Source of the DNA: Thermofilaceae archaeon
Lineage (GTDB): Archaea; Thermoproteota; Thermoprotei; Thermofilales; Thermofilaceae
NCBI GenBank assembly: GCA_025057995.1
Contig: JANXEW010000001.1
Span: 403,327-467,326 of the forward strand
DNA length: 64,000 bases
Direction: 5' to 3'
Shown: positions 2,600 through 7,528 of the stretch, piece by piece
Layout of the letters: the number at the start of each line of letters is the position of its first letter
How positions within the stretch are numbered: position 1 is the first letter of the stretch
Translations under genes and position numbers: made by a program
Notes under the pieces: generated by a model
What the model was told of the DNA's origin: nothing
Database searches by the model: none
Seen by the model: only the letters and a program-made list of their open reading frames with translations

Positions 2600-3931
2600 A
2601 TGCCGGCTGAGTTTGAACCTTATCCAGAGTTCGTTAAACTCGGCTACGTGCCAAACCCCGATAGCGACGTTATACTCTCTTTCAGAATAACTCCGAGCGA
2701 AGGTTTCACGATAGAGGATGCTGCAGGCGGCGTAGCGGCGGAAAGCAGTACCGGGACATGGACTACGCTTTACACTTGGTACGACAAAGCTCGTCTCAAC
2801 AGGCTGATGGGTAAAGCGTATGAAATTAAGGATCTCAAGGACGGTTCCTTCCTCGTCAAGATAGCGTACCCTGTCGAACTCTTCGAAGAGGGTAACATGC
2901 CTGCTTTCTTGGCCTCTGTCGCAGGAAACATCTTCGGCATGAGGAGGGTTAAGGGCCTTAGGCTTGAAGACCTATACTTGCCGAAAGCGTTCCTCGCTCA
3001 CTTCAAGGGTCCGGTGAAGGGGATTGAAGATTTAAGGAGAAAGTTGAAGGTGGAAGGAAGACCTATAGTCGGCACAGTGCCGAAACCGAAAGTAGGTTAC
3101 TCACCTGAAGAGGTTGAAAAGTTGTCTTATGACATTTTGACAGGTGGTTTGGACTTCGTCAAAGACGATGAGAACTTGGCGGGACCCAGCTACTGTCGCT
3201 TTGACGAAAGGGCGAAGTCTATAATGAGGGCTATTGACAGGGCAGAAAATGAGACTGGCGACAGGAAGGTTTGGCTAGCTAACATTACGGCTGACGTAAG
3301 GGAGATGGAACGCAGGTTGAAGCTTATCGCCGACTACGGTAATCCTTACGTGATGGTGGACGTCGTAATCACCGGTTGGTCGTCTCTCACTTACGTGAGG
3401 GACTTAGCTGAAGAGTATGGTCTAGCTATCCACGCTCACAGGGCTATGCACGCTTCTTTCACGAGGAACCCATACCACGGCATCTCGATGTTCGCTCTAG
3501 CTAAGCTTTACAGGGTGATTGGAGTCGACCAGCTGCACGTTGGTACGCCAGAGGTCGGCAAGTTAGAGGCTAAGACGATCGACGTGATAAGATGCTCTAA
3601 AGTGCTCAGGGACCGCGTATATAAGCCGGATCCTGACGACATATTCCACTTCGAGCAGGACTTCTACGGTCTTAAACCAGCTTTCCCCGTCTCCTCTGGA
3701 GGTTTACACCCTGGGACGCTTCCTGAGGTGATTAAGGTAATGGGCGTAGACCTAGTTCTTCAAGTAGGAGGAGGCGTAGTAGGGCACCCTGATGGACCTA
3801 AGGCTGGAGCTGCTGCCGTGAGACAGGCTATTGACGCAGCCTTACAGAATATACCTTTAGACGAGTACGCGAAGAACTATAAGGAATTGGCTAGAGCTTT
3901 AGAGAAGTGGGGCTTCGTAAAACCCATCTAA
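2600..3931 (+). CDS. rbcL: Ribulose-1,5-bisphosphate carboxylase/oxygenase, archaeal form III
   Basis: 443 aa; TVPKPKVGYSPEE, GGLDFVKDDEN, HAHRAMHA, QLHVGTPEVGKLEAK (loop 6 Lys), PVSSGGLHPG, LQVGGGVVGHPDG all present. Confidence 0.95.
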   Translation: MPAEFEPYPEFVKLGYVPNPDSDVILSFRITPSEGFTIEDAAGGVAAESSTGTWTTLYTWYDKARLNRLMGKAYEIKDLKDGSFLVKIAYPVELFEEGNMPAFLASVAGNIFGMRRVKGLRLEDLYLPKAFLAHFKGPVKGIEDLRRKLKVEGRPIVGTVPKPKVGYSPEEVEKLSYDILTGGLDFVKDDENLAGPSYCRFDERAKSIMRAIDRAENETGDRKVWLANITADVREMERRLKLIADYGNPYVMVDVVITGWSSLTYVRDLAEEYGLAIHAHRAMHASFTRNPYHGISMFALAKLYRVIGVDQLHVGTPEVGKLEAKTIDVIRCSKVLRDRVYKPDPDDIFHFEQDFYGLKPAFPVSSGGLHPGTLPEVIKVMGVDLVLQVGGGVVGHPDGPKAGAAAVRQAIDAALQNIPLDEYAKNYKELARALEKWGFVKPI

Positions 3932-4077
3932 GGTAAAACGCTTACAAGTCAAGCGAGAAAACCTCCGGTAGAGGTAGTCACTGTTGTCAACATAGGGTAA
4001 ACTCTTCGCTATAAGTAACCTAATTGATCACTGATACAAGTTTAGGTTGAGTACATGAGAGATGCTTAACTGAACTG

Positions 4078-4923
4078 TTAGTTTAGAAACTGTTTGAGGT
4101 CCAAGTGACTTTCTCTCTTATGAGGGAAAGATTGTTGGAACTCCACCCCAAGATTCTCGCAGAGTTTCTCTATTAACCTCCTCACGTTAGCTCTCCATCG
4201 ACTACTCGCATCCGTCGCGTGGGGATATATTTTTGTCACCTGTTTCATCGGGTTCTCAAGACAGTGTTTCATCCTGAAGTAGTCGAAGTATAGTTTGGAA
4301 CCGGTAGCTTGAGCTACTTCGATGATCGTCTTAATGTTGTCTTCATCATCGTTTACTCCTCTCATTAAGGGGCCGAGGAAAAGCCATGTTTCAACGCCAT
4401 TGTCGCTCAGTTTCTCAAGAGCTTTCGCTCTAGCCGCTGGTTCAGGTGCATTAGGTTCGATAAGTTTCGCTAAACCCGTTTCCACAGTTGTAATCGTTAA
4501 ACCAACGTCGACAGAATGTCTCCACTTTGTAAACAGGTCAAGGTCCCTTAACACTAGGGGAGATTTTGTCTGTATACTCACCCTAAAACCGGAACGAAGC
4601 AGTAGTTCAAGACCCCTCCTCGCCAGTTTCTCGACCTCTTCGATAGGTTGGTAGGGGTCGGTGATCGTGGATACGCCTACGACACCTCTCTTAACCCTCT
4701 CCGCCTCCCTTGCAAGCAATTCAAGCGCGTTCTCCTTCACGTATACGATGGACCCCCACCGTTCGACAGCGTCCCTGAACCGCGTATAGCATCGAGCGTA
4801 GCAGTAGAGGCAGCCGTGCGAACATCCGGCGTAAGGGTTGTAAGCGTAATCAAGGTCGTAAAGATTTGACTTTGCTAGAATGCTAACAGCTTTGATTCGT
4901 TTGTACTCGATGTTCACAACCAA
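4078..4923 (-). CDS. Radical SAM protein, spore photoproduct lyase-like family
   Basis: 281 aa; YNPYAGCSHGCLYCYARCYTRF gives the CxxxCxxC cluster; ITDPYQPIE and TKSPLVLRDLDL motifs. Confidence 0.85.
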   Translation of the reverse strand: MVVNIEYKRIKAVSILAKSNLYDLDYAYNPYAGCSHGCLYCYARCYTRFRDAVERWGSIVYVKENALELLAREAERVKRGVVGVSTITDPYQPIEEVEKLARRGLELLLRSGFRVSIQTKSPLVLRDLDLFTKWRHSVDVGLTITTVETGLAKLIEPNAPEPAARAKALEKLSDNGVETWLFLGPLMRGVNDDEDNIKTIIEVAQATGSKLYFDYFRMKHCLENPMKQVTKIYPHATDASSRWRANVRRLIEKLCENLGVEFQQSFPHKRESHLDLKQFLN

Positions 4924-6131
4924 GCCTCCAGGCGTTCCTGCCTGATCAACATTTTCAATAAAGTCGACTTATTAAACCAGACGCTGAGGGGAAGGCGCGT
5001 AGCTTTTCCCAAATGTTCTACTACTTCTCTAAGCGTTTCAAATCTTTCCGGCCTAGACTTGAAGAGGGCTCTCACGTTTTCACGGACAAACCAGACTCCT
5101 ATCGGAAGAAAGAAACCTTCATAGATTTCACGTATGAGTATTACGACGCCTTGAAACTTCTCCTTCATCAGGTACTCCGCCGCGGCGAGTCGAGCAGCGT
5201 AGTAACAACCTCCGAGAGACGCATACGTGCTCCTCCCGTGGTAACCTTCCCAATCCCCCTCCACCTCCACTCTAGCGCCCGGGTTCCAAGTGGTGTGAGG
5301 GAACCATGCTTCAATCCACTCATAGCTCCATGATCCAGGCGCGATTATAGCGACGAACGTATTGTGGTAGTGTCTTCTCTCGAAGTAAAGGTAATGGTTG
5401 AGAGTCTTCAGTTTCTTGACGCAGGCTACTAAATGCTTGGAGACCGTGTCGTCTACAGCTGTTATCGACCACCGTGTTGGGACAAGCCTGCGCAACTTTC
5501 CCGTCCCCAGCGCGCCGACTGAGAGCGCTCTCTGAATCACGGAGACTGGTACACCGCTTTTATAGAGGTATAGGATGGCTTCACCCGCTTTAAAGTCTAT
5601 GTCATAGAAAGCCTTCTCTAGCGGGGGTAAAGGCTTCGACTCACCTAGTAGCTTAAGTTTTTCAACGGGTGCAGCCGGTCCCATGGGAGGGGCGAAAGCG
5701 TCAAGCTTAACGCTTGCTTTCGGAGGCTTCTCGAATCGCAGCTCGAGGTCAACTGGACGCTGGGATAATGCTAAAAGTTGCAGCTCTTGGAGGCCTTGGG
5801 TCTTCCTCACGTCCACAGCTGTCACACCTCTTACTAGACTGAGCCTCATCTTCAACACATCCCTGAGAGTAAGCTCCAGCCAACGTTCCGGTGTGTCGTA
5901 GACGCTTGTATCACCTGTCTCTGGAGGTGCAGCAGGAGCTATTCGTACCCTAGGGTAGCCTACTCTCCCGACGAATACTGAAGGGGGGGATGAACCCTCT
6001 AAGACGCTGGCGCATGGAATAGGGGGACTCTCTATGACTCGCCACAAGTCGAATACGGGGCATGCGTGCTTCCCACAAAGTCCTTTAGCACCCCTGCAAA
6101 GTAAGCAAAGAGACGTCGCTTTTGTAGACAT
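4914..6131 (-). CDS. nreA: Nre family archaeal DNA repair protein
   Basis: 405 aa; N-terminal CLLCRGAKGLCGKHACPV zinc motif; GSSPPSVFVGRVGYPRVRIAP; C-terminal QERLEAWL resembling a PCNA-interacting peptide. Confidence 0.85.
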   Translation of the reverse strand: MSTKATSLCLLCRGAKGLCGKHACPVFDLWRVIESPPIPCASVLEGSSPPSVFVGRVGYPRVRIAPAAPPETGDTSVYDTPERWLELTLRDVLKMRLSLVRGVTAVDVRKTQGLQELQLLALSQRPVDLELRFEKPPKASVKLDAFAPPMGPAAPVEKLKLLGESKPLPPLEKAFYDIDFKAGEAILYLYKSGVPVSVIQRALSVGALGTGKLRRLVPTRWSITAVDDTVSKHLVACVKKLKTLNHYLYFERRHYHNTFVAIIAPGSWSYEWIEAWFPHTTWNPGARVEVEGDWEGYHGRSTYASLGGCYYAARLAAAEYLMKEKFQGVVILIREIYEGFFLPIGVWFVRENVRALFKSRPERFETLREVVEHLGKATRLPLSVWFNKSTLLKMLIRQERLEAWL

Positions 6132-6292
6132 CCTTGCCGCTATACGAAGTGAGGGAGTTATTAAAGTATCTTTCTTTCATATATGAACTTGAGACCTCAA
6201 TATTTTTCTGAAAACTATAGATGTTCGCTTAAAGTCGTTCAATGTTTTAGAATACCGCTAAAAATATCTACCACCCCTTTTAAGTTACAGCG

Positions 6293-6397
6293 GGGCTGCC
6301 GAGTACCTCCGGGGTCATGAGACTCACCCTAACTGAAGCGTAAGGGGGGTCCGCCCTATACTCGGCAGCCCTCCTTCCGCTTTCAGCTAGCTAAAGC
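6293..6397. ncRNA. Candidate structured RNA or switch element with mutually exclusive or pseudoknotted helices
   Basis: 13-bp perfect inverted repeat GGGCTGCCGAGTA (6293-6305)/TACTCGGCAGCCC (6359-6371). Second helix CTGAAGCGTAAGGGGGG (6333-6349)/CCCTCCTTCCGCTTTCAG (6369-6386). Third hairpin GCTTT/AAAGC (6379-6397). Intergenic, AT-rich TATA-like sequence upstream at ~6259-6269. Confidence 0.6.
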
Positions 6398-6437
6398 TTC
6401 GGGTGAATTTAAATATCTTTAACTAAACAACTAGTAC

Positions 6438-7367
6438 ATGACTGTCCGGCTGTTCGCCGTTTTGCTTGTGTTAGCATCGAGTGTTTTTGTTACAGCTCAA
6501 CCGACTGTATATATACTAAATGTTCGCGAGTCGGCTGGCTCTTGGACAACACCTAATTTCCTAGCTTTAAGGATTCAAGAGCTTCTTCAATCGGCTTCTG
6601 AGGAGCTTGGGCTAGAGCTGAGTGTTAAGACTGTAGAGTCGATAGAGGATTGGGAGAAGCTCGTTAGCGAAGCGCCTCAGGGCGTAGTCGTCATCAACGC
6701 GCACGGGGAGCTCGTCCCAGTTCCCCCGAAGTATGGTGTAGATTGGCAACTCTTCTACAGGGACTTGGCGATGAACATAATGTATCGGGGGTGGGTTTGG
6801 GTGAACCCCGTCGGTTACGGTTTCTTCTACGTGACGTACAATTACACGAAAACTGCGGAGGGTAGATGGGATTGGGATCAGTTGACGGTAGATGCGGCAG
6901 GTCTTGAAGTGTTAGGAGGTTGGCTAGGAATAATTGCCACTGCGTGGCCAGAGCAGGCTGGCGGTACGCTGCAGGTAACACAGGTGGGCAGGCATGTTTT
7001 CGACGTGCTCGGCTATAACCTACCGGATACGCCTAACGCCCCCAGACCCCTTACAACAAATATACCAGCATCATGGTACTTTTACGTCTATGCAAGTGGA
7101 GACGTTACAGCTTACTCGTGCGCAGCTTTTGAAATAGGTAAGGGAGCCTTGATGTGGGGTGGCTGGGCTTCCAGCCCTACTGAACAACAGGCGATGGTTG
7201 CAGCAGCTTTGACTCTTTACTACCTCTACCCGGCGCAGCTTGAAGCAGCTCAACCGAAGCCCAAAGGGTTGACGCCTGAGCAGCTTATCCTGATAGCTTG
7301 GGGTACCGTAGTGATGATCGTGCTCCTCATAGTCGTGAGCTTCCTCTTAAAGAGGAAGGGCCGGTAA
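6438..7367 (+). CDS. Exported, C-terminally membrane-anchored protein of unknown function
   Basis: 309 aa; N-terminal signal peptide ending VTAQPTVYI; C-terminal TM helix plus LLKRKGR. Confidence 0.7.
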   Translation: MTVRLFAVLLVLASSVFVTAQPTVYILNVRESAGSWTTPNFLALRIQELLQSASEELGLELSVKTVESIEDWEKLVSEAPQGVVVINAHGELVPVPPKYGVDWQLFYRDLAMNIMYRGWVWVNPVGYGFFYVTYNYTKTAEGRWDWDQLTVDAAGLEVLGGWLGIIATAWPEQAGGTLQVTQVGRHVFDVLGYNLPDTPNAPRPLTTNIPASWYFYVYASGDVTAYSCAAFEIGKGALMWGGWASSPTEQQAMVAAALTLYYLYPAQLEAAQPKPKGLTPEQLILIAWGTVVMIVLLIVVSFLLKRKGR

Positions 7368-7528
7368 AGCGGTTTAAGGATGTGTCATGGCCTTCTCATT
7401 GGTTCAATAGTTTAAGATAAACGGTCGAAAATCTTCTCGGTGTTTAGAGCTTTAAGGTGGATTTCTCGATTGACGCCAAGGCTGAGGGTTGAGTAAAGGT
7501 TTTCTACCATTCATGTTGTAAGCTTTTA

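Follow-up and report, generated by a model that had tools for sequence, protein, structure and literature searches.

What does the intergenic region between the divergent nreA gene and the exported-protein gene of this Thermofilaceae archaeon encode, and is it a regulatory leader of one of its neighbours or a gene in its own right? The region lies within a 64,000-nucleotide stretch of DNA, here called the window, and a preliminary description had singled it out as the strongest unexplained structure found there, a claim that we judge to be sound. Its setting is also as described, with nreA pointing away on one side and, on the other, an exported-protein gene preceded by its own TATA-like box. 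The architecture proposed for the element, two strong helices (A and B) that compete or form a pseudoknot and a third hairpin, is examined below.

Architecture of the element

By folding and comparison, the intergenic element is predicted to be one long bulged hairpin at 6292-6372, with helix A at its base and an upper stem at 6311-6357. Helix A is found just as first reported, with 13 of 13 pairs formed between 6293-6305 and 6359-6371. With arms within 100 nt, 20 inverted repeats are listed for the 64 kb window, and helix A alone among them is perfect over at least 13 bp. Single-strand folding yields energies of -45 to -52 kcal/mol with z-scores of about -3.5 to -3.7 relative to dinucleotide shuffles. 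At minimum energy, 6289-6371 is predicted to form one hairpin (-45.2 kcal/mol, z -3.7), and the hairpin alone gives a z-score of -4.5. Starting from the internal loop, the upper stem consists of P2 (GGGGU/GCCCU), a 3-nt bulge, a G-C pair, a bulged A, P3 (GACUC/GGGUC), a second bulged A and P4 (CCCU/AGGG). The coordinates of all elements are given in Table 1.

Table 1. Predicted small RNA, its structural elements and neighbouring features (window coordinates)
Feature	Position	Strand	Details and evidence
nreA, divergent neighbour (context only)	4914..6131	-	Pfam Nre_N E 4e-98, Nre_C E 3e-36
TATA-box-like element of the small RNA gene	6259..6267	+	TAAAAATAT; predicted transcription start near 6289
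Predicted small RNA	6289..6376	+	~81-88 nt, approximate because the 5′ end is placed by TATA spacing and the 3′ end is not fixed; covariance-model matches in six genomes, covariation, folding
P1, 5′ strand	6292..6305	+	helix A plus one G-U pair; fold, inverted repeat, compensatory changes in relatives
Asymmetric internal loop, 5′ side	6306..6310	+	CCTCC, only A6358 opposite; varies among species
P2, 5′ strand	6311..6315	+	partner 6353-6357; folds
Conserved 5′-side bulges	6316..6320	+	1-3 nt (CAT here), G6319-C6352 pair, bulged A6320
P3 and P4, 5′ strand	6321..6330	+	GACTC-A-CCCT; A-U to G-C and U-A to A-U changes
Apical loop	6331..6342	+	length and sequence variable
P4-P3-P2, 3′ strand	6343..6357	+	AGGG-GGGTC-C-GCCCT, without bulges; most conserved stretch
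P1, 3′ strand	6359..6372	+	fold, inverted repeat, compensatory changes in relatives
TATA-like box of the downstream exported-protein gene	6408..6416	+	~26 nt before the ATG; leaderless mRNA predicted

Distribution among relatives

A DNA search returned one relative, in a genome of the same genus (G002), where it likewise sits between nreA and the exported-protein gene. A pattern of the conserved core matched once in each of the four genomes of the genus, while the reversed control pattern gave zero matches, and a fifth copy was spotted by eye upstream of nreA in another genus (G006). This copy was recovered at E 7e-6 by a covariance model built from the four same-genus sequences, which also recovered, weakly (E 0.08), a copy in a third genus (G007) that retains the helices and bulges and has a TATA-like box upstream. 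The members number six, one per genome, and come from all four genomes of the genus and from G006 and G007, two other genera of the Thermofilaceae.

The model rebuilt with all six members scores them at 48-97 bits, a match that is given by construction. No further match was obtained with it in 39 relatives (E up to 5), and no more copies in 81 genomes of the class (E up to 0.3) or 400 of the phylum (E up to 0.1), where the stricter filters used can lose weak matches. Outside the Thermofilaceae no member was found among the 400 phylum genomes sampled, and 80 nreA loci from named genomes yielded no copies beyond those already known. Absence from two further genera (g2 and g3) is weak evidence because their assemblies are only 57-79% complete. 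A better negative is provided by the mostly complete, Thermofilum-like genomes of genus g7, which have no recognisable copy, so that not all of the family needs the RNA.

Two weaker candidates were discarded. A match of the four-sequence model in another family of the class (G049, E 0.8) has many broken pairs and is missed by the rebuilt model. When the model was restricted to the upper stem, further weak matches were obtained in the 39 genomes; the best of these (G027, E 0.007 per genome), which is the only one that was folded, adopts a different fold with P1 missing and is taken as chance.

Covariation and coding strand

In the six-sequence alignment, which is fitted to the structure of the four-sequence model, 98.7% of the scored cells pair. 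Both partners are changed in 7 of 25 pairs (12 cells, with fewer independent changes than cells, as four of the six sequences are congeneric). Seven such pairs are reached by 2 of 500 shuffles; when the partners are shifted by 1-3 columns, 0-1 both-side-changed pairs remain and 41-66% of cells are paired. Because of this fitting and relatedness each sequence was also folded alone: all six share the architecture, with z-scores from -3.3 to -5.4 and a P1 of 12-15 bp. Two of the findings on which the preliminary description had let the element stand or fall, its occurrence in relatives and its covariation, have thus come out in its favour.

Within this framework the conserved unpaired positions are all located on the 5′ strand of the upper stem, where 1-3 nt are followed by A or U and then by an invariant A. 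The bulge pattern of 6316-6320 is common to all six members, and so is the bulged A6326 between P3 and P4. The apical and internal loops differ among the members in both sequence and length.

Hand-drawn structural blocks of the six members contain 157 Watson-Crick pairs, 12 G-U pairs, 0 A-C and 0 other mismatches. As the blocks were drawn around folds that permit G-U but not A-C, the lack of mismatches is partly by construction, and the strand argument is supportive rather than independent proof. On the opposite strand the 12 G-U pairs would be A-C mismatches, and the molecule under selection is therefore likely the RNA of the + strand. The position of the TATA-like box agrees with this reading, as do the covariance-model scores for the same loci, which are 80.8-96.2 bits on the + strand and 15.5-24.1 bits on the - strand (the model being built on the + strand).

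The competing helix

Helix B, whose left arm lies in the loop of helix A and whose right arm lies beyond it, was proposed to coexist with helix A as a pseudoknot or to alternate with it. It can indeed be drawn in the window, where it is strong (equalled by 2 of 500 shuffles of the two arms), but it is not used in the minimum-energy fold, in which part of its left arm enters the upper stem of the hairpin. In none of the five relatives is the equivalent helix clearly better than shuffles, of which 123 (G001), 451 (G002), 252 (G003), 36 (G006) and 345 (G007) of 500 are as strong. Its left arm is taken by the apical loop and by P4/P3, and most of its right arm falls outside the conserved element. 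From these comparisons we conclude that helix B is a peculiarity of the window genome that arises partly from runs of G and C. The third hairpin (6379-6397) likewise finds no backing, having 5 bp only, lying outside the conserved element and not being conserved in the aligned relatives. The upper stem, on the other hand, was missing from the helices first listed, and the architecture of two competing helices is wrong on the comparative evidence.

The least probable of all explanations considered here is consequently that helices A and B alternate or coexist and thereby control the downstream gene. The strength of helix B in the window sequence is what speaks for it. The bases required by helix B form the covarying upper stem instead, a single bulged hairpin with seven both-side-changed pairs is conserved in place of the competing helix, and the gene to be controlled has a TATA-like box past the hairpin and is a different one in G006 and G007.

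Promoter and genomic context

In all six members an AT-rich, TATA-like box is located ~25-33 nt upstream of P1, least clearly so in G006. The usual archaeal spacing between TATA box and start places the transcription start at the foot of P1. No clear oligo-T terminator is seen on the 3′ side of the hairpin.

With a TATA-like box of its own, the exported-protein gene does not need the RNA as a leader. Downstream of the G006 copy comes a different gene, which codes for a small membrane protein on the opposite strand. The G007 copy occupies a ~700 bp gap between a GH3-like gene and a TSUP-like transporter gene (assigned by eye), which both run on the other strand, and nreA is on another contig there. 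These differences in the downstream genes and the lack of nreA near the G007 copy make a cis role for one gene unlikely. Taken together, the separate box of the downstream gene and a shape that is kept where the neighbours differ give the element the appearance of a stand-alone small RNA gene.

Some further observations were made on the neighbouring genes. The predicted exported protein (6438-7367, + strand, 309 aa) has a hydrophobic segment near its C-terminus and no Pfam match; it is conserved in the four genomes of the genus, where its gene adjoins the RNA gene. A small membrane protein of ~170-176 aa is encoded in this neighbourhood in G001, G002, G003 and G006 (L136 6002-6532, L137 3425-3937, L138 3388-3912, L135 4300-4821). 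Its gene is missing from the window (7368-7528), where a nucleoside hydrolase gene directly follows the exported-protein gene. The RuBisCO large-chain, radical SAM and nreA genes of window positions 2600-6131 are found together in the window genome (G000), G002 and G006.

Comparison with known RNA classes

The element had not been recognised as a named RNA class, and Rfam gives no match to it either: with Rfam 15 there is no match at the gathering threshold in the window, the best permissive matches to the element are at chance level (E 1.5 or worse), and nothing is found at the element in loci L002, L041 and L042. ARAGORN, which can miss permuted or split genes, detects no tRNA in the window, and no T-arm motif was seen by eye. 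A C/D box RNA was rejected as well, there being no RTGATGA in the six sequences and no conserved position for CTGA (read by eye). A riboswitch or leader was dismissed on account of the promoter-like box and the changing identity of the downstream gene described above.

Archaeal RNase P RNA resembles the element in being a stand-alone structured RNA gene; the element, however, is ~85 nt long and has no Rfam match, and a full-size RNase P RNA (RF00373) is located elsewhere in four of the six carriers (G001, G002, G003 and G007). RF00373 was not found in the window's assembly or in G006, though the three congeners and G007 have one. This is likely due to an assembly gap, both assemblies being ~91% complete, or possibly to a divergent RNA.

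Y RNAs, the partners of Ro60, have a small stem formed from both ends and bulges in a conserved helix to which the protein binds. The element shares with them the end-formed stem and the bulged conserved helix, but its carriers are without the Ro60/TROVE protein, which was found in 0 of 21 genomes, all six carriers included. We know of no sequence motif common to the element and Y RNAs. In the literature on Thermofilum and its relatives such an RNA was not found described. On present sequence comparisons the element looks like a real structured RNA, narrowly distributed and apparently undescribed.

Interpretation

The element is probably a stand-alone gene for a structured non-coding RNA of ~85 nt, which would be read from the + strand under its own TATA-type promoter and form one long hairpin. 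Structure, strand, compensatory conservation, independence of the flanking genes and absence from the known RNA families are each supported by the sequence data. In the predicted transcript the long basal P1 (12-15 bp) would be separated by an asymmetric internal loop from the upper stem, whose three small bulges all lie on the 5′ strand; the RNA may act in trans. Conserved bulges in the upper stem combined with drifting loops point to a stem that is recognised by a protein, the opposite of the pattern that guides or antisense RNAs with a common target would have. They are thus more suggestive of a protein partner than of an antisense target common to the members, and pairing with any fixed, shared target is less likely as the apical and internal loops drift freely. 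The upper stem would accordingly serve as the binding site of a putative RNA-binding protein, and the RNA could either function with this protein as a small ribonucleoprotein or be a decoy for it.

Other explanations have been weighed against this stand-alone, protein-bound RNA. Antisense pairing with mRNAs is a common mode of action of stand-alone hairpin small RNAs, and the present element, which looks like such a gene, might pair with mRNAs in trans through its apical loop or other unpaired parts. We regard this as unlikely, since the apical loop has no sequence shared by the six members and hence, species-specific targets aside, no common target. That five of the six copies lie directly upstream of a divergent nreA could point to a cis-acting leader or attenuator of nreA or of the exported-protein gene. 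The predicted transcription is directed away from nreA, however, which has an AT-rich box of its own upstream on the other strand (~6159-6168), and the G007 element is far from any listed gene start, with nreA on a separate contig; a cis-acting role is therefore decidedly improbable. An intergenic inverted repeat that is long and GC-rich might also be expected of a DNA-level element such as a cruciform, a protein-binding inverted repeat or the remnant of a mobile element. The bias of 12 G-U over 0 A-C on the + strand is not what a DNA palindrome would show, the element occurs in a single copy per genome and has no match in viral contigs (searched with one exact pattern) or in phage or plasmid records, and the TATA-like box is kept at a similar distance in all six members, so that we hold this reading to be very improbable.

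An atypical H/ACA pseudouridylation guide RNA deserves separate comment, because the arrangement of stem, internal loop and stem is similar. Archaeal H/ACA guides and the H/ACA-like guides of Pyrobaculum are likewise small hairpins with an internal loop encoded by stand-alone genes, and Pyrobaculum has atypical forms in which the lower stem is truncated (PMC4652768). The class is defined by a kink-turn or K-loop with tandem G-A pairs in the upper stem, an ACA/ANA 14-16 nt after the loop-closing pair and a lower stem of 7-9 bp (PMC4652768). In the element there is no kink-turn, with one C only opposite the 5′ bulges and no tandem G-A pairs; no ACA box lies 14-16 nt past the loop-closing pair, around which distance the window reads CCCT; and P1 is longer throughout (12-15 bp vs 7-9 bp). 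The 3′ side of the internal loop has only 1-4 nt in five of the six members and 7 nt in G007, where self-pairing is possible, and the loop is variable, with sequences that disagree between species. Such a guide function is, on this evidence, scarcely to be expected.

More tentatively, and with considerable doubt on our side, the RNA may be the core of an undescribed archaeal ribonucleoprotein, in which the three-bulge stem would dock a lineage-specific or repurposed RNA-binding protein. To our knowledge few structured small RNAs besides modification guides have been described in Thermoproteota. The RNA is well defined by covariation, and with a covariance model in hand it can be searched for in transcriptomes of Thermofilaceae enrichments, while its conserved bulged stem lends itself as bait in a search for a partner protein. 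If the ribonucleoprotein reading holds true, the RNA would take part in a ribonucleoprotein job, for example in RNA quality control or in ribosome or stress regulation, that has not yet been linked to an RNA in archaea.
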